Source: Chloracidobacterium sp. CP2_5A
GTDB taxonomy: Bacteria > Acidobacteriota > Blastocatellia > Chloracidobacteriales > Chloracidobacteriaceae
Assembly (NCBI GenBank): GCA_002254845.1
Contig: NKPT01000004.1
Location: 62,001 to 126,000, forward strand
Direction of reading: 5' to 3'
DNA: 64,000 nucleotides
Numbering within the stretch: position 1 is the stretch's first letter; the number at the start of each line of letters is the position of its first letter. The translations under genes were made by a program, and so were the position numbers. The notes below the pieces were generated by a model that saw only the letters and a program-made list of their open reading frames with translations, had not been told where the DNA came from and made no database searches. Shown piece after piece: positions 44,148 to 57,816 of this stretch.

Positions 44148-46394
44148 TTGACGACGGACCCGCTCCAACCTCAGCATTCCGCGCCGCTGTTTGATCGTCC
44201 CGTGACGATGGTCGCCCTGCTCTACCTGCTGGCCTTCGTCGTTCGCCTCTCCAACTTAGGCGGCGTCGTCACGTCATTTGGCGTTTTTCCCATCTCGACC
44301 GACTCGTTTTATCACCTGCGCCGGATTCAGGCGGCGGTCGCCGATGGGTTGCGCGTCCCGGATTTTGACCGCTACGTGAACTTTCCGGATGGGGCGAGCG
44401 TCAACTGGCCCTTTGGCTTTGACTGGCTCTACGCCGCCGTCACGCGGGGGCTGTATGCGCTCAGCGGCGGGGCGGGCCTGCCGGATGAGGGCTGGACGGT
44501 CGCCGTCGCCTGCTTCCTGACGCCGCTCATCGGCGCGGCGACGCCCTGCCTAACCTATCTCGTCGCCGCCCGTCTGGCTAATGCCTGGGCTGGGCTGGCA
44601 GCCGGCTTCATTGTGGCGTGGATGCCCGCCGTCTGGGTGGTAGGCGCCGTCGGCTATGTTGACCACCACGTCTTCGAGTCGCTGTGCGTCGCCATGTACC
44701 TGTGGGCGGTCGTCCGGGAGCGGCTGCGCCCGTGGCACGGCTTGGCGGCAGGGTTGGCCATGGTGGCGGGGCTGCTGTGCGCAACGACGCTGCCGCTGCT
44801 CATCGGTCTTCACGCGCTGGTTACGGTCGGGTGGATCATCGCGCACTGGCGCCAGGCGGAGGATGGCGATGCGCGACTGCGCGCCAGCTTGTGGGCCTGG
44901 CACGGGTTATTGGTTCCGCTGGCGCCATTTGTCGCCACGCGCTTTGCCGAGCCAAGCGGCGTCAATCCGGCGCTTGTGACAGCCTGGGCGGCGGCTTTCC
45001 TCGCGGCCGGCGCGACGCTGGGCGTTTACGCTTGGCGGGTCAGGGCGCGGCGGCAAGCCCTTGGGTGGGCGGTCGCTTGGCTGCTGCTCGGCGTTGGCGT
45101 CTTGCCGCGCCTGGCGCTACGGGACGCCTGGCGGTTCATCCAGTATGGCATCGCGCACATTGGCGCGGCTGATCCGTGGCTGGCGACGATTTTTGAGAGC
45201 CAGCCGCTTTTGAGCCAGTCCTTCCGCGACATTACCAACAACTACACCGCCTTCCTGTGGCTGCTGCCGTTGGCTTGGGCGCTGGTTCTGGCGCGCGCTT
45301 GGCGCAGAGAAAAGCCTGTCTGGACGCTCTTGTCGCTGTCGGCGCCAACCGCCGGGCTGGCGCTGCTGCAGCTCAAGTTTAGCGGCTTGTTCGCGCCGCC
45401 GTTCGCGGTTGTCATGGGCCTTGCCCTGCAGGACCTGGCGGCGAGACTCGCCGGAGCGACGGGATGGCGAGACCGGCTTCAACGTCCCCTGCCGATTGGG
45501 ATAGCGGCGGCCGCGCTGGCCCCAGCCATCATCTTCACGCTCGGCGCGCCGGTCTACATTGTGTCGCCGACTGGGGCGTTCGTGGACGTCGACCCCGCGC
45601 TGCGCTGGCTAGCGACCCATACGCCCGCGACCAGCCCCCGGGGCGATCAGCCGCGCGATTACGCCATTTTGTGCGACTGGACGCCCGGCCACTGGGTCAT
45701 CGGCATTGCGGGACGGCCCGTCATCGCCTCGCCGCTCGGTCACGCCGAGCCGCTGCGCGAGGGTATCCGTGACGCGGCCGCGATGTTTGCGCTTTCTCCG
45801 GCCGAGTCGCTGCGCTTACTGGAGGCGCGGCGCGCGCGCTACATTCTCGTCACGCCGATGTCGCCGCGAGCGGTGATGCGCGATGCGGCGTGGGACCCAA
45901 AAGCCAGGTCTTTTGGCTCGTGGGAAGATTGGAATGAGCAAATGAAGCGGTCGCTCTACGCTCGGCTGGTTGCCGACGAGGCCGTTCCGCAAGGCGACGC
46001 GGCGCTGACGCGGATGCGCTTGGTTTACGAAAGCGACTTCGAGACGGACTACCCGCTGTTCACGCAGCCGCATGCCGCGGCCAAGGTCTTTGAGCGCGTG
46101 GCAGGGGCGATCATCGCCGGCCAGACGACGCCGGGCGCCCGAGTTCAACTCTCGACGCGCATTCGCACGTTTTTCCGGCGCGAGTTTGACTATGTGGATG
46201 AAGTGACGGCGGACGCGCAAGGACGGTTTGAGCGGCGCGTTCCTTACGCGCAGCAGCGATCGCCAGTGACAACGCTGGCGGCCGTGACGCCCTACCGCGT
46301 CGTGACGCCGGAAGGCGCGTTCACCGCGACGGCCACCGAAGCCGACGTCATTGACGGGAAGACGCTTCAGCTCATTCGCGCGCCAGGCGAATGA
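44148..46394 (+). CDS. STT3-family oligosaccharyltransferase-like membrane protein
   Basis: The protein has 748 residues. The N-terminal ~470 residues hold about a dozen membrane helices with the acidic loop motifs of STT3/AglB/PglB: FPISTDSFYHLRRIQ (about residues 46-60) and GYVDHHVFESL (about 169-179). The C-terminal ~260 residues are soluble and periplasmic. Its start carries ILCDWTPGHWVIGI where STT3 proteins have the WWDYG motif, so Trp-Trp-Asp is replaced by Cys-Asp-Trp. By family it would move a lipid-linked glycan onto Asn. TTG at 44148 is the start, 21 bases after the kinase stop. Its last 28 bases overlap the convergent kinase-ATPase gene. STT3 homologues are uncommon in bacteria. 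Confidence 0.78.
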   Translation: MTTDPLQPQHSAPLFDRPVTMVALLYLLAFVVRLSNLGGVVTSFGVFPISTDSFYHLRRIQAAVADGLRVPDFDRYVNFPDGASVNWPFGFDWLYAAVTRGLYALSGGAGLPDEGWTVAVACFLTPLIGAATPCLTYLVAARLANAWAGLAAGFIVAWMPAVWVVGAVGYVDHHVFESLCVAMYLWAVVRERLRPWHGLAAGLAMVAGLLCATTLPLLIGLHALVTVGWIIAHWRQAEDGDARLRASLWAWHGLLVPLAPFVATRFAEPSGVNPALVTAWAAAFLAAGATLGVYAWRVRARRQALGWAVAWLLLGVGVLPRLALRDAWRFIQYGIAHIGAADPWLATIFESQPLLSQSFRDITNNYTAFLWLLPLAWALVLARAWRREKPVWTLLSLSAPTAGLALLQLKFSGLFAPPFAVVMGLALQDLAARLAGATGWRDRLQRPLPIGIAAAALAPAIIFTLGAPVYIVSPTGAFVDVDPALRWLATHTPATSPRGDQPRDYAILCDWTPGHWVIGIAGRPVIASPLGHAEPLREGIRDAAAMFALSPAESLRLLEARRARYILVTPMSPRAVMRDAAWDPKARSFGSWEDWNEQMKRSLYARLVADEAVPQGDAALTRMRLVYESDFETDYPLFTQPHAAAKVFERVAGAIIAGQTTPGARVQLSTRIRTFFRREFDYVDEVTADAQGRFERRVPYAQQRSPVTTLAAVTPYRVVTPEGAFTATATEADVIDGKTLQLIRAPGE

Positions 46395-48373
46395 ATCGCT
46401 TGTCGAAGCAGGCGGGCCAGCGCCTCGGCGGTCGGGCGGTCGGTCTGACGCTTAGCGAGCGCCGCGCCAATGGCGTTGACCAGCGCCGGGGGCGCGTCCG
46501 GCCGCCAATCCCGGATGGGTGACGGGCTTGCATGCAGGATGGCGTCCAGCACCTCGTAGTAGGATTTCCCCTCGAAGGGCAGTCGTCCGGTTGTCATCTC
46601 ATACAAAACGATGCCCAGCGAAAAGACATCGCTGGCGAAGGTCGCCTGCGCGTCGTTGGCGGCTTGTTCCGGCGACATGTACGTGACCGTGCCGACCAGC
46701 ACGCCAGATTCCGTGATGTCGGACACCGCCTGAAGGTGCTCGTCCGAAAACAGCAGCGGCGCCCGCGCGTCGCCGGCCAGCTTAGCGAGGCCGAAGTCAA
46801 TAATGCGGACGTTGCCCTGGGCGTCAAGTTGCAGATTGGACGGCTTGATGTCACGGTGAACAATGCCGACCGCATGGGCCGCGGCCAAACCCTCCGCCGC
46901 CTGCGCCCCAATGCGACAGACTTCCGGGCAAGCGAAGCGTCCGCCCTCGCGCAGGCGCTGGGCGAGGGTTTGGCCGCGCACATATTCCATCACCAGATAG
47001 GGCGCGCCGTCCGCTTCGCCAATCTCGTAAAGCGTGGCGATGTTCGGATGATTGAGGTTTGACGCCATGCGCGCTTCGCGGAGAAACCTCTGCCGCGTCT
47101 CCAACTGGTTGACATAGCGCGCCTTGAGCAGCTTGATGGCGACTTTGCGGCCCAGCTTGGCGTCGCGGGCCAGAAAGACATTGCCCATGCCGCCGCCACC
47201 CAGGCGTTCCAGCAGCTCAAAGTGTCCGAGGCGCGCCGGCGGCTCCACATCGCCGTCGGGCCAGGCTGGGGCGCAGCTTTCAGACAGCGACAGCCGCCCC
47301 TCCAGCGGCAGCTCCAGCGTGGGCGGCACGGACACCTGCTCGCCAGCGGTCGCGCCGCTGCGCGCTGGGCGCTGCGTAATCGGCAGAAACCGACTCGAAA
47401 ACCAGCGCGGCCGGCCGTCCGGCTCAACCGCGATGTAGCCGGCCCGCTTGAAGTCTTCAAACACGTAAGTGTGCTCGCGCGCCACCGGCTGATCGGACGA
47501 CAGCGCCTGGCAGACAGCCCGCTCGTCGGCGGAGAAGCGCTCCCACAGGTAGCGAAAGTGCCCGCGCACTTCGTCGTCGAAAGCCTCCTCGATCGCGGAC
47601 GCATCAAGGCTTCCGCCATCCTGAAGCTGCTCGAAGTAAATCGAGCAGGCAATTTGCAGGTAGAAGGGGAAATTGCCGCTCAAGCGCCGAATATCGGCGG
47701 CGTAGGGCGCGAGCGGAACCCCCGCCGCTTCGGACGGCCGAGCGATAAGGTCGAGCGCCTCGTCGTCGGGAAAGGCCCGCAAATAGACATTCGTGAATAT
47801 GTTGAAAAAAGGCGAGTCGGCAATCTGGTCGGCGTGACACAGCTCCTGCAAGTCGCGCCCTGACGAAGTCACGTAAGCCACCTCATAGTTATTCGCCAGC
47901 GACCGCAGGAAGGCGAAGAAGTCCGCTGAGAAGGCGCGGTTCGAGGTGAGAATGTCAAACTCGTCAAACACGGCGATGAGCTTGCGGTGCGTCGCGCGCA
48001 ACCTGTCGAGCGCCGCATGCACGCCGTCAAAGCCGCGCTTCCCGCTGGGCGGCAGCTCCGCGCCGCGCTCAATTTCGGTCAGCCAGGCGTCCAAGAAGTC
48101 TTCGAGCCTAATGCGTCGCCGCTGCTGCAGGTCAAAAAACACAAAGACGTACTCTTCCGGCCGCGACAAGTGCCGGCGACGCATTTCAGGCGCGCACAGG
48201 TAGTTGAGCAACGACGATTTGCCAATGCGCCGGTCGCCGACAACCGCGATGGACTGCGGCCGCCCGGCCCCAAGCCGCGAGAAGATTCGCGCGATTTCCT
48301 TGCGGCGACCATAAAACTGCGCCGGGTCATGAATGGCGACACGATTGAGATAGGGGTTGGCTGATCCCGGCAT
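46367..48373 (-). CDS. AAA/STAND ATPase fused to a C-terminal Ser/Thr kinase
   Basis: The protein has 668 residues. The N-terminal half is a P-loop ATPase resembling the archaeal/STAND type: FYGRRKEIARIFSRL, Walker A VVGDRRIGKSSLL (about residues 44-56), Walker B IAVFDEFDIL (about 138), and a winged-helix-like region to about 330. The C-terminal half is a Hanks kinase: GGGGMGNVFLARD, VAIKLLKARY, IVHRDIKPSNL, DFGLAKL, GTVTYMSPEQAA. This is the reverse order of the giant kinase nearby. It likely couples a nucleotide-dependent sensor to protein phosphorylation. The C-terminal end overlaps the STT3 gene by 28 bases tail to tail. It lies 6 bases before the lactate dehydrogenase stop, in the same direction. 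Confidence 0.9.
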   Translation of the reverse strand: MPGSANPYLNRVAIHDPAQFYGRRKEIARIFSRLGAGRPQSIAVVGDRRIGKSSLLNYLCAPEMRRRHLSRPEEYVFVFFDLQQRRRIRLEDFLDAWLTEIERGAELPPSGKRGFDGVHAALDRLRATHRKLIAVFDEFDILTSNRAFSADFFAFLRSLANNYEVAYVTSSGRDLQELCHADQIADSPFFNIFTNVYLRAFPDDEALDLIARPSEAAGVPLAPYAADIRRLSGNFPFYLQIACSIYFEQLQDGGSLDASAIEEAFDDEVRGHFRYLWERFSADERAVCQALSSDQPVAREHTYVFEDFKRAGYIAVEPDGRPRWFSSRFLPITQRPARSGATAGEQVSVPPTLELPLEGRLSLSESCAPAWPDGDVEPPARLGHFELLERLGGGGMGNVFLARDAKLGRKVAIKLLKARYVNQLETRQRFLREARMASNLNHPNIATLYEIGEADGAPYLVMEYVRGQTLAQRLREGGRFACPEVCRIGAQAAEGLAAAHAVGIVHRDIKPSNLQLDAQGNVRIIDFGLAKLAGDARAPLLFSDEHLQAVSDITESGVLVGTVTYMSPEQAANDAQATFASDVFSLGIVLYEMTTGRLPFEGKSYYEVLDAILHASPSPIRDWRPDAPPALVNAIGAALAKRQTDRPTAEALARLLRQAIHSPGARMS

Positions 48374-49502: not shown

Positions 49503-50378
49503 ATGGATTTGTCACCTGCGCGCAGCCTTTTACTCCGGCGCTTGCTCACGCTCCTTCTGGCTTTTTGTGGCGCAACAGCGGCTCAGGCGCAACAAGCGAT
49601 TGTCAACCTGCCATCCGCCGACATTACCCCCAAGGGACGTCACTTTCTGATGCACGAAACCCAGTGGCGACCGCAGAATCCGGGACGCTACTGGTACGCC
49701 ACCAACTTCTACTGTTACGGCATCGGCAAAAACACGGAGCTGGCGCTGACCACCTACAATAGCGGCACGCCGCAAGCGCCGAATGAAAACATCGGCGTCG
49801 GCTTTAAGACCGCCGTGCCGCTTTTTCAGAAAAAGAGCTCCCAGCTGGAAGTCAAGTTAACGTTTGGACAAATGCTGACCTACAACCTGCGGGGCGCGGG
49901 GCTGGGCGGCTTCACCTACTCGCACGGCAGTCTCGTCCTGCCGAAAACGCACACCCGGCTCACCGCTGGCGTGAGCTTCGGAACGCGAAATCTTTTCAAG
50001 AAGAACACTGTTCATCCGATTGCCGCGGTTGAGCAGCCCATCATCAAACACCGGCTATATCTGTTGGGCGAGTGGTTCTACGGCAAGCATGACTTCGGCT
50101 TTTTCACGCCGGGCGTTCTATATCATCCGGCGAAAGACCACATTATCGTCGTCGCCTACAAGATTCCCAATCACCCCGCCAACGGTAAAAGCGGCCTTGT
50201 CTTTGAGTACGGCTTCTTTTTCGGCGGCAAGGAAAGCGGCAGCCACCACGGCGATGATGACCTTCATCATCCGCCGGCGCCGCCTCAGCCGGATTCTAAG
50301 CCCGCTCCCAAAGTCACCGCTGCGCCGCGCCCGCCTGCGAACGCTCCAAGCGAGCTCAGAAGCGTCGTCTTGGAATAA
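49503..50378 (+). CDS. Exported beta-rich protein, possible outer-membrane protein
   Basis: This 291-residue protein starts with a clear signal peptide (LLLRRLLTLLLAFCGATAAQAQ, cleavage about residue 29). The mature part is full of alternating hydrophobic and polar strands with many Tyr, Phe and Gly (for example YATNFYCYGIGKNTELALTTY and VGFKTAVPLF), and lacks internal hydrophobic helices, as expected of a small beta-barrel. The C-terminal 50 residues are His/Asp- then Pro-rich (SHHGDDDLHHPPAPPQPD). No family is recognised. It precedes the tubulin-like gene by 189 bases in the same direction. Confidence 0.6.
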   Translation: MDLSPARSLLLRRLLTLLLAFCGATAAQAQQAIVNLPSADITPKGRHFLMHETQWRPQNPGRYWYATNFYCYGIGKNTELALTTYNSGTPQAPNENIGVGFKTAVPLFQKKSSQLEVKLTFGQMLTYNLRGAGLGGFTYSHGSLVLPKTHTRLTAGVSFGTRNLFKKNTVHPIAAVEQPIIKHRLYLLGEWFYGKHDFGFFTPGVLYHPAKDHIIVVAYKIPNHPANGKSGLVFEYGFFFGGKESGSHHGDDDLHHPPAPPQPDSKPAPKVTAAPRPPANAPSELRSVVLE

Positions 50379-50567: not shown

Positions 50568-52268
50568 ATGAAAAACATCATCATCGCCACCGGCGGAAAC
50601 GGCACGCGCGTCGCTGACGCGCTCGCGAGGCTTTTAGCCATCGGCTTCCCGACGCGCCTGCGCGGGGGGCAGCCGACCAGCGTCGGCGACGAGCTTGAAA
50701 TCTGGCGCATTGATCCTGACCGCAGCTCTGGCGCGCTCACCGTTCTCAACGAAACCCTGCGCCGCTACCGCTGGATTCAACACCTGATGCAAGACGGCGA
50801 CGGCGAGCCGGCGGCGTCGCCCCGAGCGGAGAGCCCGTGGGCGATGACGGTCAATACCCAAGTTCGAGACTTCGACCCGCTCGCATTGCCGGGCTTTGAA
50901 AAGCCGGTTTCCACCCTGCGCGAGTTGCTGGCGCAGGCGCCGGGCAAGCGCGACGGGACGTCTTTGCTCTACGCTTTCTATGAAGACAAAGACCTCGACG
51001 TGAAAATCAACCGGGGCTTTTACCAGAAGCCCTTTATCGGCTCGCCGGTCATCGCCGCCTTTGCCGCGTCGCTGACGGATCGGAACTCGCCGGCTGGCAG
51101 CCAGATTGATTTCAATACGCTCAGGCAAAGCCAAGCTCGATTTTTCATTTGCGGCAGCGTCTATGGCGGCACGGGGGCCTGCGCCCTGCCCGTGATTGGG
51201 CAGTTTCTCGCCCGGGAGCGCCAGCGCGGCAACCTGAGCTGGACGATTGGCGGCTGCTTGCTGATGCCCTACTTTCTCCCGCCGCCGCCGCCCTTCAGCC
51301 CGCTGCCCGAAGACCGCCAAGCAGACGCGCGTTACGTGGATGAAGCAGCGCGCCGGATGGCGCAACAGCACGCCGCGCACGAGGCCTTCGCCGTCCTCAA
51401 CGACGAAGAGCGCATCGCGCTGGCGCGGCAAATTCTGACCGGCTTTTACGCCGATCCGACCGACCTGGCGCTGCGCGCGCGGCATAGCCTTGTCTATTAC
51501 CGCGACATCCTCGCGCCGACCTTCGACGAGCTGTACCTCATCGGCAAGCCACAGCCCGACGCGCTTGAGCGATGGAGCAACGGCGGGTCCACCCAGCGCA
51601 ACCCGCTCAACGCCACGGAAGTCGTCGCCGCCATCGCGGCGCTCAACTACTTCGCCGGCAACAGCGTGGGCGGCGGCCAGCAATATAGCCTCGCGGCGGG
51701 CGATGCGACCCTCGCGCCGGCAACGCTCCGGCTCGCCGATTTGCCCGTTTACGCCGTCAACGGGCAGCCCGTGGACGCTGAAAAAGTCTTTCTGGCCACG
51801 GCCACGCTCATTCACCTGCTGAAGTATCAGATCGACTGGTCCTCCGACGCGCGCGGCTGGAGCGCCGACCCCGGCGGGCTGCGCCGGCTCTACCAGCTTG
51901 ACCCGACGCGGCAGGAGCGCGACCGCGTCGCCTACCAGACGGCGCTTGACTTTATCCGCGACATCATGGCGGACATGGTTTCGCCGGACCGAACGCTGGG
52001 TTGGAGCGCCGGCATCCGATCCGACCTTGACAAGCTCATCGGGCCCGGCGCGGAGAGCGCCGTAATCGAGCGCATGAAACGTCGCCCGCGGTTGTTTGGG
52101 CTGGCTGCCGACAACGCGCCGCAGGAGCCGCTGCGCTTTGGGAACGCGGCAGTCGAGCTGACCTCGTTTGATTTTTACAGCTGGACGCCGCCGCCGGAGT
52201 TCACGCGCGGCGATTATGCCCGGCTCGTCTGGGCGCAAGTTTTCGCCAAAGCCGGAGCGCCCGCGTAG
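50568..52268 (+). CDS. Tubulin/FtsZ-like protein
   Basis: The protein has 566 residues from the ATG at 50568. It begins IIIATGGNGTRVADALARL, a Gly-rich phosphate loop like the first loop of tubulin-like proteins. Near residues 193-209 it has ICGSVYGGTGACALP, the counterpart of the GGGTGSG tubulin signature that binds the GTP phosphates. Both lie at the spacing expected of the fold. The remainder has no family I recognise. There is no signal peptide or membrane helix. It is followed after 20 bases by a very large actin/Hsp70-like gene. In family terms it probably binds and hydrolyses GTP and may polymerise; that is inference, and it is clearly not FtsZ itself. Confidence 0.72.
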   Translation: MKNIIIATGGNGTRVADALARLLAIGFPTRLRGGQPTSVGDELEIWRIDPDRSSGALTVLNETLRRYRWIQHLMQDGDGEPAASPRAESPWAMTVNTQVRDFDPLALPGFEKPVSTLRELLAQAPGKRDGTSLLYAFYEDKDLDVKINRGFYQKPFIGSPVIAAFAASLTDRNSPAGSQIDFNTLRQSQARFFICGSVYGGTGACALPVIGQFLARERQRGNLSWTIGGCLLMPYFLPPPPPFSPLPEDRQADARYVDEAARRMAQQHAAHEAFAVLNDEERIALARQILTGFYADPTDLALRARHSLVYYRDILAPTFDELYLIGKPQPDALERWSNGGSTQRNPLNATEVVAAIAALNYFAGNSVGGGQQYSLAAGDATLAPATLRLADLPVYAVNGQPVDAEKVFLATATLIHLLKYQIDWSSDARGWSADPGGLRRLYQLDPTRQERDRVAYQTALDFIRDIMADMVSPDRTLGWSAGIRSDLDKLIGPGAESAVIERMKRRPRLFGLAADNAPQEPLRFGNAAVELTSFDFYSWTPPPEFTRGDYARLVWAQVFAKAGAPA

Positions 52269-52288
52269 CTAGACTCAAGAAACCGCTT

Positions 52289-55200
52289 ATGGGACTGCTT
52301 ATCAATCACGGCATGCTGGGCGAGGTCGGCGGATTTCGCCCTCGGACGTTTTTTTCGATTGACCCGCACCGCGTCACGCCGCCGGCGCCGAATCCGCGCT
52401 TCTTTGAGACGCTGCCGACTATCTGGGCGGCGGCCTATCGGTTTCGGCAGGGCGTCGAGCAGGGCGACGAAATCGCCCGCTGGGAGTGGCTGACGCTGTT
52501 TGTTCTGCACGCCCTGGGCGTGGCCTATTTGACGGAGCCGCTGACGCCAAGCGCGCTGGCGCGGGAATATCCATCGGCCTTGCAGCCGGCGCTGGAAACC
52601 ACCCATCCGCAGGCCGGGCAGTTCCGGGACGCGCAAATCCTCAGCGTCGGCGCGACCACGCTGGGCGGCGTCTATCCCGACATTATCTTTTTTCCGGCGC
52701 GGGCGCGCTCGCGCTGGCAGACCGAAAGCTATCTGCTTCCGTATCTTGAAGGCGAACGGCTTTCCTGGGCGCGGACGCGGGACGCGCTGCTCGCCGACGG
52801 CTTCGAGCGTGAAAAATGCCATCGTCATCTGCGGCGCGTGGCGAGCGACGCGCTGCCGCTCAGCTTCGGCAAAATCCTCGACGCGCTGTGCGACGCGGCG
52901 TTTGGCTCCGCGCCCTACGGGCTTGACCAAGCGCCGCGCCTGTCGCCGACTCCGGCCGGCTGGCCGCTCGTTCGCGAGCAGCCGCAGCCGATGGAACTCC
53001 TGGAGCTTTACCCGCTGCGGAAGCCAAACGCCAACGGCGGGCAAACCTACTTTCTCGTGGACAAATTTCCCGCGCCGCCAAGCTGGATGACAACGGCGCT
53101 AGGGCCGGGGCGGCCGTCGCCGGCCAGCTATCGGATGCTGGGGCCAAACGCCATTGGCGTCGAGACGCGCGGCCGGCTGGAAACGCTGACGCTTGGCCCA
53201 GGCGACGAAATAGTTGATCTGGCAAGCTTGTTCCTAAGCGACTATGTCGGGCGGGTGGACTATCCCCGCGACGACCAGCGGTTGTCGCTCATTCATCCGG
53301 TTCACAAGCTTCAGGGGCTGACCGACGCTTCAAAAGTTTCGGTTTGCCTGGCGCCGGTCACCAGTCGGCTTCTGGCCTACTTCCCCGAACTACTGGCGGA
53401 AGACGGCGCGGGACTGCGGGCCAAGCCGGCGTTTGACGGCCAACGCGTGGAATGGGATTTCCAGCTCTGCGGGCGGGAGATCCGCTGGACGGGACGCTAT
53501 TTCGAGGCGCGCGACCTCGCGGTGGCTTCGTTGTCGCTGTGGCCGCCGAAAGTTGATCCGCAGTGGCATTTCTACGCGGCGCATGGGCTGGGTCTGCGCG
53601 ACCGGGCCGGGCGCTGGCGCTTGGTGGACGAAGCCGGACGGCTGGGCGACCTCCATGAGCTGGGCGCGGCGCAGGACGAGTACGTGACGCTGCTGACGCC
53701 GCCGGCGGCGGCCGAGGCCGCAAGCAACCGCCCGCGCGCCCTGAGCTGGTGGTGGCCCGTCCAGGGCCGCGATGTCGAGCGCGGAATCGCGTGGCTCGCC
53801 AAGCTGCCCGACGCCGGATCGCGCGCGCTCGCCGACGCGCACCTTGCCGTGGATTTCGGGACGAGCAACACATCGGTCGCCTTCGCCGCCGGCGGCATCA
53901 CCGACACGCTCCGATTTTCGCTCGCGCCGCTCCGTCTGTGGAATGGCGATGGCGCGAATCGTCTCGGCTTCGCGCCTTTCAACTGGGGCGGATCCAAGGG
54001 GTATTTCTCAACGACGTTGCTGACGCGCCGCGCCGCCGGACTGCAGAGCGTCACGCCGGAAACGCTGGCGGCTGAGCACTTTTTCGCCGCCGCCATTCCA
54101 AACCTCTACGCCGACGGCCTCAACCGGATGCTGGCGGCCGGCAGCGGAACCAATGCCTGGGACCTGCACGATAGCCTCAAGTGGGATCAAGCGCGGACTT
54201 CCGCGTACCGCGCGCTGTTTCTGCGCTTGCTTCTGCTCTATGCCCATGGCGAGCTGTTTTTCAATCAGCGGGCGCGCGTGACGGACTACACGTTTACCTT
54301 TCCGCTGGCGATGAGCAAAGCCGACCGGGACGCGTTCCACGCGCAGAACCAGCGCAGCATTAGCGTCATCCAGCAGCTTTGCCACGGCGAGCGCGACTTC
54401 GAGGTCGCCGCCCGCTACCGGGCGAACGTGGACGAAAGCGCCGCGGCCGCGGCTGGCGCGAACCTGCCGCCAAGCGCGGATCGGCTGGACTTGTTCATTG
54501 ACGTTGGCGGCGGCACGGCCGACATCGCCGTTCGCCGCGGGACGGAAATTCTGGTTCTCGACAGCCTGCGGCTGGCGGGGCGGCAGTTTTTCCGCGCGGC
54601 GGAGCAAAATCTCTCGCCGCGCGTGAAGCTGCGCCGCGCCAACGTCTTTCGCCGCCATCTAGGGTTGTTGTTGGCTCCGGATGACGCGGCGCTCGCCGAG
54701 ATGGACGTGAGCGATATGCCAGGCATCCGCGAGCATCGCCTAAGCCTGCCGACCTTTTACCTGCTGCGCGTCAACGAGCTCAAAAGCGAGGCGTTTGTCC
54801 AGCGCGAGCATGCCATCCTGAAGCGCCAGCGCGACGCCTCGCTGCCTGAAGGCCAGAGTTACCGTGACGCTTACCAGCGGTTTTGCGCCCAGATGTTTTT
54901 CCGTCACCTGCTGGCTTACGGTCTCGTGCAGGCTGCCGCCGCGGCCATCGAGCGCAATCTCAATCAATCGAAGCTGCCCCACGGCCTTCATCTGGTGTTG
55001 GGAGGGAACGCCTGGGGGCTGCTGCTTTTCGCGGACTTTGAGCGTTCCGGCGCGGCGCTGCTGACGGAAGCCGAGACGCTGCTCAACCGGCTCAAGCGAT
55101 GCGCGCGCGAGGGATTGTCGCCTGAAGCCAGGGACTGCTTGGACGACCTGCATCTTCACGATGTCACGCTGCTCAACGAAGGCGACATTAGCCGCGCCAA

Positions 55201-55744
55201 GACCAACGTCCCGATTGGGGCGCTGACGGTATCGGCGACCCAGTCCGTCAGCCGGCGCGCGGCCCCCTTCGCCGGGGCGAATCTGCCGCAGGTCACGATC
55301 AGCGACGGCGCGGTCGAGTCGGCGCCCCGCCAAGTCCGGTGGTTTGACCGCTGGAGCGAAGCCGACCTCAAGCGCCTGTTCGAGATGGAGCCGGATACCG
55401 ACATTCGGCAGGTAACGATTCGGCTGCCCGGCGCGTCCCAGCCTCTTGACGCACTGCTGACGTTGTTTACCTCGCGCGGGCCGACCGACCTCATACCGCA
55501 GAAGAAGTGGGCGACAATCAACGGCTATCTGGCCGGCGGCCGCCACTACCCGGCGCTGACGCCGCTGGCGCTCTTCCTGACGGGCGTGCTCTACGCTGAC
55601 CCAGACCTCAAGCTGGTGACAAGCTTGCCGGACCAGCCGTACCCGATGATTGAGGCCATGGCGCGCAAAGCCGGGCTTTATGACGACCAGCCGCCGCTCG
55701 CTGACGAGCCGGAGACGCGCCGGCAGACGATGACTTACGAGTAA
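52289..55744 (+). CDS. Large protein with an actin/Hsp70-type (ASKHA) nucleotide-binding domain
   Basis: The protein has 1151 residues. Residues 1-515 form an unrecognised mixed domain region. From about 518 the actin/Hsp70-like core starts with AVDFGTSNTSVAFA (phosphate 1), LDLFIDVGGGTADIAV near 737 (phosphate 2), and LHLVLGGNAWGLLLF near 910 (adenosine-site-like). The last ~150 residues are another unassigned part. No membrane segment is present. By family it should bind ATP and change shape or polymerise; a relation to SrfB-like proteins is possible. The gene starts 20 bases after the tubulin-like gene and ends 50 bases before the membrane coiled-coil gene, so these three very likely form one operon. 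Confidence 0.75.
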   Translation: MGLLINHGMLGEVGGFRPRTFFSIDPHRVTPPAPNPRFFETLPTIWAAAYRFRQGVEQGDEIARWEWLTLFVLHALGVAYLTEPLTPSALAREYPSALQPALETTHPQAGQFRDAQILSVGATTLGGVYPDIIFFPARARSRWQTESYLLPYLEGERLSWARTRDALLADGFEREKCHRHLRRVASDALPLSFGKILDALCDAAFGSAPYGLDQAPRLSPTPAGWPLVREQPQPMELLELYPLRKPNANGGQTYFLVDKFPAPPSWMTTALGPGRPSPASYRMLGPNAIGVETRGRLETLTLGPGDEIVDLASLFLSDYVGRVDYPRDDQRLSLIHPVHKLQGLTDASKVSVCLAPVTSRLLAYFPELLAEDGAGLRAKPAFDGQRVEWDFQLCGREIRWTGRYFEARDLAVASLSLWPPKVDPQWHFYAAHGLGLRDRAGRWRLVDEAGRLGDLHELGAAQDEYVTLLTPPAAAEAASNRPRALSWWWPVQGRDVERGIAWLAKLPDAGSRALADAHLAVDFGTSNTSVAFAAGGITDTLRFSLAPLRLWNGDGANRLGFAPFNWGGSKGYFSTTLLTRRAAGLQSVTPETLAAEHFFAAAIPNLYADGLNRMLAAGSGTNAWDLHDSLKWDQARTSAYRALFLRLLLLYAHGELFFNQRARVTDYTFTFPLAMSKADRDAFHAQNQRSISVIQQLCHGERDFEVAARYRANVDESAAAAAGANLPPSADRLDLFIDVGGGTADIAVRRGTEILVLDSLRLAGRQFFRAAEQNLSPRVKLRRANVFRRHLGLLLAPDDAALAEMDVSDMPGIREHRLSLPTFYLLRVNELKSEAFVQREHAILKRQRDASLPEGQSYRDAYQRFCAQMFFRHLLAYGLVQAAAAAIERNLNQSKLPHGLHLVLGGNAWGLLLFADFERSGAALLTEAETLLNRLKRCAREGLSPEARDCLDDLHLHDVTLLNEGDISRAKTNVPIGALTVSATQSVSRRAAPFAGANLPQVTISDGAVESAPRQVRWFDRWSEADLKRLFEMEPDTDIRQVTIRLPGASQPLDALLTLFTSRGPTDLIPQKKWATINGYLAGGRHYPALTPLALFLTGVLYADPDLKLVTSLPDQPYPMIEAMARKAGLYDDQPPLADEPETRRQTMTYE

Positions 55745-55760
55745 GGCGACGAGTAAGGTC
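55738..55760 (+). repeat. 12-bp tandem duplication across the ASKHA gene stop
   Basis: ACGAGTAAGGCG repeats with period 12 from about 55737; TAA at 55742-55744 is the stop and a second, in-frame TAA lies at 55754-55756. Confidence 0.7.
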
Positions 55761-55794
55761 AGCGGCGTCGGTGGCGACGCGGGAAGGAGACGCG

Positions 55795-56499
55795 ATGGAA
55801 GCGCTCGCGCTAACGGCGGTGGCGGTGGCGGCCTTGAGCCTGCTGGGCTTGGCGGCGCTTTATGGGGTCGTCATCCGCCCGCTTCAGGCGCAGGCGCGGG
55901 AGCGGGCGGATGATGCCGACCAGTGGCGCAAGCTAACGACACGGCTTGACCGGCTCGAAGAGCGCCTTCAGTCGCCTGGCAACCGACCGACCAGCCCCGG
56001 CGCCGTTGAGTCAGGAGCCGAACTTGAAGAGCTCCGACGGGAGATGGGCTATCTGAAAAGCAAGCTTTCAACGCTGCTGACGCCGCCGGAGACGCCGCCG
56101 GGTCCGCTGCCAAGCTTTGCGATCGGGCCGCCCCCCGCGGAAGCGACACCGGAAGCGACACGGGGAGCGGCGCCGCAGATCAGCGCGCATCCTTTTGAAA
56201 ATCAGCGGGTTTCAGACATTGTGGCGCGTTATCGGGGGCGCTTGCGCGCCGGTCATATTGACGCGCTCACGCAGCACTTTTCAGTTATGCCGAACGGCTT
56301 GTTCCTTGAGCTAGAAGAGCGCGGCGAGCGGCTGGTTTTTCCGGCGCAGGAAATCATCTATGCCGGCGATTTTGAGCAAAACTACAGCTTCGCCTACGAC
56401 TGCGCGCAGCCGGGCAGCGGCTATGTGGTCGTTGTGTCGCCGGCGCGCCTCGACGCGCGGGGGCAGGTCATCGCGCGCGGTCGTCTGCGCGTCGAATAG
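55795..56499 (+). CDS. Membrane-anchored coiled-coil protein, third gene of the tubulin/ASKHA operon
   Basis: The 234-residue protein has a strong ribosome binding site GGGAAGGAG about 5 bases before the ATG at 55795. An N-terminal membrane helix (LALTAVAVAALSLLGLAALYGVV) is followed by charged coiled coil (about 30-60 and 78-100), then a Pro-rich linker (about 105-140, with EATPEAT repeated). It ends in a ~90-residue globular domain with HPFENQRVSDIVARYRGRL and FLELEERGERLVFPAQEII. It is unrecognised. Its position suggests that it ties the tubulin-like and ASKHA proteins to the inner membrane, which is inference. Confidence 0.65.
   Translation: MEALALTAVAVAALSLLGLAALYGVVIRPLQAQARERADDADQWRKLTTRLDRLEERLQSPGNRPTSPGAVESGAELEELRREMGYLKSKLSTLLTPPETPPGPLPSFAIGPPPAEATPEATRGAAPQISAHPFENQRVSDIVARYRGRLRAGHIDALTQHFSVMPNGLFLELEERGERLVFPAQEIIYAGDFEQNYSFAYDCAQPGSGYVVVVSPARLDARGQVIARGRLRVE
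56139..56162 (+). repeat. 12-bp in-frame tandem duplication in the coiled-coil gene
   Basis: GGAAGCGACACC (56139-56150) followed by a copy with one change (56151-56162) gives the peptide repeat EATPEAT. Confidence 0.7.
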
Positions 56500-56649: not shown

Positions 56650-57816
56650 TCAATAGAGCAAATACGCCGCGCGCCGCCGATAAAAGTCAGCCAGCGCCGG
56701 CTCATCCGCCGCGGCGATATCCTCCCAAGCCGCGTCCGCCTCAATTGCCGCCCGCAGCCGACTCGACCCGGCAATGACATCAAAGGGCAGCCGGTCAAAG
56801 ACATACTCATAGGGCGGATCGCGCCACAGCTTTTCCCGCGGGTATAGCCGTCGGACGGCCTTGAGAATTTCCACGGCCGTCCGGTACGAGCGAAACGTCG
56901 CCCGATTTTGAACGTGCGCTTGCAGTCCGCCGCACAGTTGACCGGCGAATTTGTTGAACGTCGGCTGGAACCACATCGGGCGAAAGTGAACGCCGGGCAG
57001 ATGAAGCGGATCGAGCGCCGCCGCGAGATCATACGGGTCAATGAACGGCGCGCCGAAAATTTCAAACGGCCGCGTCGTGCCGCGCCCCTCGGAAAGCGTC
57101 GTTCCTTCTAGCAACACCAGGCCCGGATAGACGGCAGCGGTATCGAGCGTCGGCATGTTCGGCGACGGCATCACCCACGGGAGCCACGTCGCGTCAAACC
57201 ACTGCGGGCGCGACCAGCCTTCCATCGGGACGACGCGCAGCTCGCAGCCGATGCCCTCGGTTTCATTGAACAGGCGCGCCAGCTCGCCGACCGTCATCGC
57301 ATGGCGCATCGGAAGCGGGTACATCCCGACAAACGAAGCCCATTCGCGCTCCAAAACCGCGCCCTCGATGTCGAGTCCGCCGATGGGATTGGGGCGGTCA
57401 AGGACGACAAACGGGATGTCGCGCGCCTTCGCCGCCTGCATCGCCAAGGCCATCGTCCAGATGAAGGTGTAAACGCGCGTCCCGACATCCGGCACGTCAA
57501 AAACCAGCGCGTCAACCTCCGCCAGCATCTCCGGCGTCGGCTGACGGGTTTGGCCATAGAGGCTAAAAACCGGTATGCCAAGCCGCGAATCGCGCGCCCA
57601 GCCTTCCCACTCGATCATGTTGTCCTGGGTTTCCCCGCGCAGGCCGTGCTGCGGGCCGAAAAGCGCCGTCAGGCGAAAGGCCGGACAGGCGGCAAACAGA
57701 TCGGCCGCGTGGCGATAGATGACATCCACCGAGGCCGGGCTGCAAATGAGACCTACCCGGCGGTCGCGCAAAAGGTCAAGGTGATGGGTGAAAAGGCGGT
57801 CAAGTCCGGTTTGCAT
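56650..57816 (-). CDS. namZ: Exo-beta-N-acetylmuramidase NamZ-like protein (DUF1343)
   Basis: The 388-residue protein belongs to DUF1343, whose characterised member NamZ removes terminal N-acetylmuramic acid from peptidoglycan fragments. It has DRRVGLICSPASVDV, ALFGPQHGLRGETQDN, LVFDVPDVGTRVYTFIWTM, DRPNPIGGLDIEG and LPWVMPSPNMPTLDTA, then LLEGTTLSEGRGTTRPFEIFG, which are conserved family blocks. Typical members have a signal peptide; this one starts MQTGLDRLFTHH without one, so it may act in the cytoplasm. It lies downstream of the 3D-domain gene but is separated from it by a terminator. The start is ATG ending at 57816. Confidence 0.9.
   Translation of the reverse strand: MQTGLDRLFTHHLDLLRDRRVGLICSPASVDVIYRHAADLFAACPAFRLTALFGPQHGLRGETQDNMIEWEGWARDSRLGIPVFSLYGQTRQPTPEMLAEVDALVFDVPDVGTRVYTFIWTMALAMQAAKARDIPFVVLDRPNPIGGLDIEGAVLEREWASFVGMYPLPMRHAMTVGELARLFNETEGIGCELRVVPMEGWSRPQWFDATWLPWVMPSPNMPTLDTAAVYPGLVLLEGTTLSEGRGTTRPFEIFGAPFIDPYDLAAALDPLHLPGVHFRPMWFQPTFNKFAGQLCGGLQAHVQNRATFRSYRTAVEILKAVRRLYPREKLWRDPPYEYVFDRLPFDVIAGSSRLRAAIEADAAWEDIAAADEPALADFYRRRAAYLLY

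Follow-up and report, generated by a model that had tools for sequence, protein, structure and literature searches.

A tubulin-like and an actin/Hsp70-like protein encoded as a pair with a membrane coiled-coil protein in Chloracidobacterium, a candidate core of an envelope-coupled NTPase system

The 64-kb stretch of the Chloracidobacterium sp. CP2_5A genome analysed here (the window; bases 62001-126000 of contig C27 in a 3.4 Mb assembly that is 95% complete) contains three consecutive open reading frames (ORFs) on the forward strand at 50568-56499. The first (50568..52268, from an ATG; 566 residues) encodes Tub, a tubulin-superfamily protein related to Tubulin_2/FtsZl1, the second (52289..55744; 1151 residues) an ATPase-like protein of the actin/Hsp70/MreB superfamily, designated ASKHA, and the third a membrane and coiled-coil protein, designated CC, that has 242 residues if translated from a GTG (55771..56499) and 234 if translated from an alternative ATG (55795..56499). 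Tub and ASKHA are separated by 20 bases and ASKHA and CC by 26 (GTG) or 50 (ATG) bases, the ATG value being the one given in a sequence-only reading of this DNA that had proposed an operon pairing two cytoskeletal nucleotide switches with a membrane anchor. The gene order is kept throughout the genus and also in a second genus of the same family, where identity to the window proteins is 42% for Tub, 37% for ASKHA and 22% for CC, and Tub is found in all seven genomes of the genus and beyond. The ratios of non-synonymous to synonymous change (dN/dS) are 0.10 for Tub, 0.11 for ASKHA and 0.21 for CC, with synonymous change far above non-synonymous in each. The conserved order and low dN/dS argue that the trio is more than a chance arrangement and, in line with the operonic coupling proposed in that reading, the genes lie together, never apart, in every relative examined.

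The motifs quoted in the sequence-only reading, GGNGTRV and ICGSVYGGTGACALP in Tub and DFGTSNT and DVGGGTAD in ASKHA, are all present in the respective proteins. In Tub, GGNGTRV forms a T1-like nucleotide loop (residues 9-15; 50592..50612, forward strand) in which G9, G10 and G12 are invariant in 12 diverse homologues, and ICGSVYGGTGACALP forms a T4-like glycine loop (residues 194-208; 51147..51191, forward strand) that corresponds in alignments to the GGTG loop of FtsZ and of FtsZl1 and in which S197, G200, G203, A204 and P208 are invariant, and G201 and T202 nearly so, across the same homologues. Both loops fall within the N-terminal Rossmann domain, as is characteristic of the tubulin/FtsZ superfamily; a T7 catalytic loop is not identifiable in Tub. 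Taken singly, the window protein matches Pfam Tubulin_2 below the Pfam cut-off (E 0.017), and a phmmer search with it against the PDB returned no tubulin match. Its homologue in genome G346, in contrast, reaches E 2.2e-11 with Tubulin_2 and 8e-4 with Tubulin, and a 12-member Tub alignment matches canonical FtsZl1 in a profile-profile comparison (probability 97%, E 1e-10); the direct match to FtsZ has E 0.4. The homologue and the family alignment support the view that Tub is a divergent tubulin-superfamily protein with Tubulin_2/FtsZl1 as its nearest Pfam relatives. The structure prediction suggested in the sequence-only reading as a check points the same way: an AlphaFold2 model of Tub, used as weak support, has the strand-loop-helix order with both nucleotide loops in place at low confidence (mean predicted local distance difference test, pLDDT, of 37), and its 50 best PDB matches are all tubulin, FtsZ, TubZ or CetZ, with every E value above 0.05.

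ASKHA carries a phosphate-1 motif, DFGTSNT (residues 522-528; 53852..53872), a phosphate-2 motif, DVGGGTAD (residues 738-745; 54500..54523), and a third motif, LVLGGNAWGLLLF (residues 901-913; 54989..55027), all on the forward strand; the third we take to be adenosine-like from established knowledge of ASKHA motifs. This is the motif set of the superfamily, and D522, G524 and T528, D738, G740, G741 and D745, and G906, respectively, are invariant in 12 diverse homologues, as is E716, ahead of phosphate-2 at the position of the conserved Glu of MreB and Hsp70. Catalytic-type residues are thus invariant in both Tub and ASKHA. The window protein matches Pfam MreB_Mbl above the cut-off (30.9 bits versus 27; E 1.6e-7), and the family profile matches the structures of MreB (2.2e-8), FtsA and Hsp70/DnaK, so that the description of the second protein as a 1151-residue ASKHA protein stands. 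It is not a full-length orthologue of MreB or FtsA: the best Pfam stretch covers 61 of the 1151 residues, and the NCBIfam mreB model scores 32 bits against a cut-off of 366. The protein is much larger than actin, and ~510 residues precede its phosphate-1 motif.

CC, as also described in that reading, is a membrane-anchored single-pass protein: one hydrophobic segment (residues 17-35; 55819..55875, forward strand; hydropathy 2.44) is followed by coiled-coil-like sequence and then by a C-terminal beta-rich domain (56083..56499, forward strand) that is common to the CC proteins of distant loci and to a zinc-ribbon protein encoded elsewhere in the window genome. Basic residues trail the transmembrane segment so that, by the positive-inside rule, the C-terminus is probably cytoplasmic. 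A CC homologue occupies the same place in relatives and, in many of these, there is a second hydrophobic segment further in; such proteins would have an N-terminal extracytoplasmic part and, again, a cytoplasmic C-terminus.

Among 396 Acidobacteriota genomes surveyed, with other phyla reached through plasmids and viral contigs, Tub profiles identified members in 16, and ASKHA profile matches clear of the MreB background come from these 16 and from G265, a total of 17 (4.3%). Tub-profile matches in G189 and G197 proved to be ThiF-like false positives, and hundreds of weak matches to the ASKHA profile are MreB-sized genes rather than family members; the G127 ASKHA scores just under a few of these but is located in a fused frame. 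Tub and ASKHA are adjacent or in one frame in all 17 genomes, and no Tub without a neighbouring ASKHA was found among the 396 genomes or in the plasmid, Prevotella and viral neighbourhoods examined. Three divergent Acidobacteriota have the pair as a single frame, of 1689 residues in G297, 1599 in G127 and 1478 in G265. The G297 fusion may reflect a stop codon lost by assembly error in a 65% complete genome; the G127 and G265 assemblies are 98-100% complete, and the Tub half of the G265 fusion is weak. At the sequence level Tub and ASKHA thus form an obligate pair, inherited together and, in three lineages, apparently fused. The pair is also found on cyanobacterial plasmids (Gloeothece NC_014503, Picosynechococcus NZ_CP014003 and NIES-970) and, as adjacent genes, in Prevotella sp. 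oral taxon 299 and on one viral contig. Trees of the two proteins agree in all supported clades, inter-phylum clades included, with (viral contig, (G290, Prevotella)) and a grouping of G346 and G358 with the cyanobacteria common to both; in the Tub tree the G355 row was translated out of frame and is disregarded, and G127 and G265 are long branches. Transfer between phyla thus carries the two genes together.

In relatives, the pair is part of a larger cassette that encodes a vWA-like lipoprotein (~440-620 residues), a small polytopic membrane protein (2-4 hydrophobic segments in 130-230 residues), Tub, ASKHA and a membrane/coiled-coil protein. The first four genes occur in that order on one strand in most of the 23 related neighbourhoods; the vWA-like gene is inverted in Gloeothece and downstream in G265 and G127, and the small membrane gene was not seen in the G290 cassette. 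The lipoprotein carries DxSxSM and 'hhVTD' motifs, and a profile of its family gives E 0.008 against integrin I/vWA domains. The vWA-like and membrane genes adjoin Tub in G001, G005 and G006 and are elsewhere in four genomes of the window genus, the window genome, G002, G003 and G004. As the order lipB-vWA-membrane-Tub-ASKHA-CC-NamZ-RlpA-TrxB is unbroken in G001 and G006, a clean breakpoint separates the membrane gene from Tub in the window lineage; the two displaced genes lie between lipB- and thrS-like genes in the window genome (L109 10055-12132, contig C261 of G000). A sixth component is encoded at L119 2550-4163 (contig C58 of G000), a 537-residue zinc-ribbon protein that is similar (E 3e-11) to the N-terminal zinc-ribbon part of proteins linked to the cassette elsewhere and in its middle shares the C-terminal domain of the window CC (E 2e-6), a relation seen in all seven genomes of the genus. 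From these matching genes on C261 and C58 we infer that the window bacterium has all six components, spread over three loci. The trio of the sequence-only reading is therefore real but, as a system, incomplete, the window carrying half of it.

A complete vWA-membrane-Tub-ASKHA-CC cassette is present at the end of the viral contig (L056 815-8116; IMGVR_UViG_3300034171_000222), next to phage DNA methyltransferase and tail genes; a search of phage genomes gave no cassette match. Other modules accompany the cassette in some lineages. ZorB-like (up to E 6.5e-17) and ZorA-like proteins are encoded in the G346, G290 and G265 cassettes and a ZorA-like protein in that of G127; the partner of the G346 ZorB-like protein also matches MotA_ExbB. 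The zinc-ribbon proteins of G008, G038, G297 and G314 have a common N-terminus and differing C-termini (FGE-sulfatase with or without a beta-helix, PKD/Big or TPR modules, or no recognised module); at the G355 locus (L106) the CC and zinc-ribbon reading frames are doubtful.

Several further features were observed at these loci. By eye, the zinc-ribbon protein on C58 has a C-terminal hydrophobic segment followed by an NTF2-like-looking domain. An extra gene of 387 residues is located between Tub and ASKHA in G001 and G005 (L011 7104-8267; L016 6994-8157) and is not present in the other genus members examined, in G346 the small membrane gene and Tub are separated by a gene for an RHS/YD-repeat-like protein of 1710 residues that has a hydrophobic segment at its N-terminus (L035 11915-17047), and a second large ASKHA (HSP70/SrfB-like, 959 residues) lies downstream of the G358 cassette (L036 15368-18247). 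In the window, the trio is directly followed, on the opposite strand, by a NamZ exo-beta-N-acetylmuramidase gene (56650-57816) and then by an RlpA-like gene, and both neighbours are kept beside the cassette in G001, G005 and G006. Upstream, 49503-50378 encodes a predicted exported, possibly barrel-like protein of 291 residues with no Pfam match; the sequence-only reading had noted it just upstream of the trio, but in six regions from relatives nothing corresponding to this gene or to the LDH gene lies near the cassette, and both were rejected as parts of the system. At 46367-48373 lies a gene for an nSTAND2 NTPase (E 1e-114) with a fused Ser/Thr protein kinase domain (E 1e-50), domain kinds as in predicted conflict/signalling STAND proteins; it too was rejected, as it is unlinked to the cassette in relatives, in which the query matched only an unrelated kinase domain. 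An archaeal AglB/STT3-like oligosaccharyltransferase (AglB_L1 E 1e-13) is encoded, in this bacterium, at 44148-46394.

Of the protein families that form nucleotide-driven assemblies, the two great ones are the tubulin and actin superfamilies. A mechanism that would employ both can be proposed, in which the extracytoplasmic vWA lipoprotein, on binding a ligand or in response to an event at the envelope, signals through the polytopic membrane protein. Tub, switched by GTP, and ASKHA, switched by ATP, would then assemble together at the inner membrane, with the cytoplasmic C-terminal domain of CC as their platform. This assembly would set a threshold and recruit or drive an output module, possibly the zinc-ribbon proteins with their differing C-termini or, in certain lineages, a proton-driven motor like ZorAB, and the CC-type domain on the zinc-ribbon protein could compete for, or extend, the Tub-ASKHA assembly. 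On such comparative grounds, the role is most likely one in conflict (anti-phage or anti-competitor) or envelope stress rather than in division or shape, favoured by the patchy distribution, the transfer between phyla, the plasmid locations and the ZorAB-like and variable modules. Taken whole, that a paired, envelope-coupled two-NTPase switch operates as described in conflict or stress, with the three window genes as the cytoplasmic core of a six-component system, we judge to have about an even chance. The stronger claim, that it is a prokaryotic machine of a class not described before, used against phages or other bacteria, we hold to be less likely than not. In such a machine a GTPase of tubulin fold and an ATPase of actin/Hsp70 fold would make up one co-assembling switch, fused in three lineages and coupled across the envelope to a vWA-type sensor lipoprotein.

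Several observations count against this proposal. Single vWA-like proteins fall short of the Pfam vWA models, with sub-significant matches; the AlphaFold2 runs used 3-sequence alignments and, besides the low confidence of the Tub model, the ASKHA model (pLDDT 27) is unusable; the viral-contig cassette may be phage cargo or flanking host DNA, as the contig may end in host DNA; and no recognised toxin or nuclease effector was found among the components of the window genome. The presence of the cassette in all seven Chloracidobacterium genomes, under strong purifying selection, also fits a housekeeping role. CC-anchored Tub/ASKHA filaments, of the sort envisaged in the sequence-only reading, might then be a membrane-associated cytoskeleton that organises the envelope, chlorosome attachment or division, a role favoured by this universal retention and consistent with dN/dS values of ~0.1, the membrane anchor and the filament-forming members of both superfamilies. 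A cassette present in so few genomes of the phylum, carried on plasmids in cyanobacteria and transferred between phyla as a unit is not, however, expected of such a role; canonical FtsZ and MreB-sized ASKHA genes are present as well, and the ZorAB-like and variable modules fit it poorly. We consider this explanation rather improbable.

A chaperone-like machine, in which an Hsp70-type ASKHA loads or unloads Tub or vWA-bound peptides with no filament and no dedicated defence, would account for the size of ASKHA, far larger than actin and with its long region ahead of phosphate-1, and for the match of the phosphate-1 region to Hsp70/DnaK structures, and a pairing of vWA proteins with chaperones is known from MoxR-vWA systems (PMC7159879). 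The best matches of ASKHA are, however, to MreB and FtsA rather than Hsp70, and neither a substrate-binding domain nor a GrpE or DnaJ partner was seen, so that we regard this as unlikely. A TubZ/ParM-like system for segregating or positioning plasmids or mobile elements, suggested by the plasmid-borne cassettes and the service of both superfamilies in plasmid partition, was rejected as very improbable, as the cassette has no DNA-binding adaptor or centromere-like gene, is chromosomal in Chloracidobacterium and most hosts, coexists with the ParA/ParB of the Gloeothece plasmid itself and includes an extracytoplasmic lipoprotein and membrane proteins that segregation leaves unexplained.

If the switch proposed above does serve in conflict, bacterial immunity would gain a cytoskeleton-like class of system that senses the envelope. 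A mobile cassette that always carries both superfamilies, apparently fused in three lineages, would also provide a direct bacterial test of a joint assembly switch; Picosynechococcus, a genus with plasmid-borne cassettes, is generally regarded as tractable.

Comparison with known systems places the cassette near, but not within, several of them. FtsZ/FtsA and MreB cytoskeletons employ the same two superfamilies in association with the membrane, but the trio is not orthologous to them; as the sequence-only reading had it, none of the three is FtsZ, FtsA or MreB, with size, partners and distribution all different, and the window genome has its own FtsZ. SrfB (PF07520) is likewise a very large bacterial ASKHA of unknown function, and the window ASKHA gave no match to its profile. 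In Zorya, ZorAB is an inner-membrane motor with a peptidoglycan-binding domain (Mariano et al. 2025, PMC11890865); ZorA-like proteins occur in four Acidobacteriota cassettes, three with a recognisable ZorB-like partner, but they are accessory and missing at the window locus, where the core is Tub and ASKHA. ZorC, ZorD and ZorE were not seen in the cassettes, and the window trio had no Zor match in PADLOC, which lacks models of the core proteins.

Kaur et al. (2020; PMC7159879) described GAP1-N2 conflict systems, centred on a GTPase, in which tubulins and HSP70 belong to non-overlapping themes; their core is a TRAFAC GTPase accompanied by GAP1 and FNIII proteins. They resemble the cassette in having tubulin-type proteins, extracellular vWA or vWA-like domains, zinc ribbons, transmembrane and NTF2-type domains and FGE-sulfatase (FGS) modules, and membrane-proximal NTP-dependent assemblies were proposed there too. 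Tubulin and ASKHA genes, however, are separate themes there and paired or fused here, and no TRAFAC-type P-loop ORF was found in 19 cassette neighbourhoods, which were not searched by model for GAP1 or FNIII.

FtsZl1 operons contain vWA, GTPase, kinase and OmpA genes as described by Makarova and Koonin (2010, PMC2875224), whose text names no actin/Hsp70 partner for FtsZl1. These FtsZl1/Tubulin_2 (PF13809) operons share with the cassette a tubulin protein with a GGTG loop and membrane proteins and, in some loci, OmpA-family proteins, and their vWA partner has a vWA-like counterpart in the cassette. In canonical FtsZl1 an extended coiled coil and an alpha-helical C-terminal domain are fused to the tubulin domain. 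Tub, however, has 466-577 residues in the main clade and 757-769 in a distant branch versus ~780-1500 in canonical frames, the 566-residue window protein leaves no room for a long coiled coil, which is instead on a separate protein, ASKHA is always adjacent or fused, and GTPase and kinase genes are not part of the cassette. Canonical FtsZl1 genes in Acidobacteriota are mostly in different genomes, in frames of ~780-1500 residues and without this ASKHA. If the proposed mechanism is correct, the FtsZl1/vWA proposal (2010), the tubulin/HSP70 conflict systems (2020) and ZorAB motors would join in one testable family. Given the relation to FtsZl1 and yet the ASKHA pairing and the P-loop GTPase not found nearby, the cassette appears to be a variant within the tubulin/vWA kind that differs from the FtsZl1/vWA and GTPase-centred systems published in the open-access literature.

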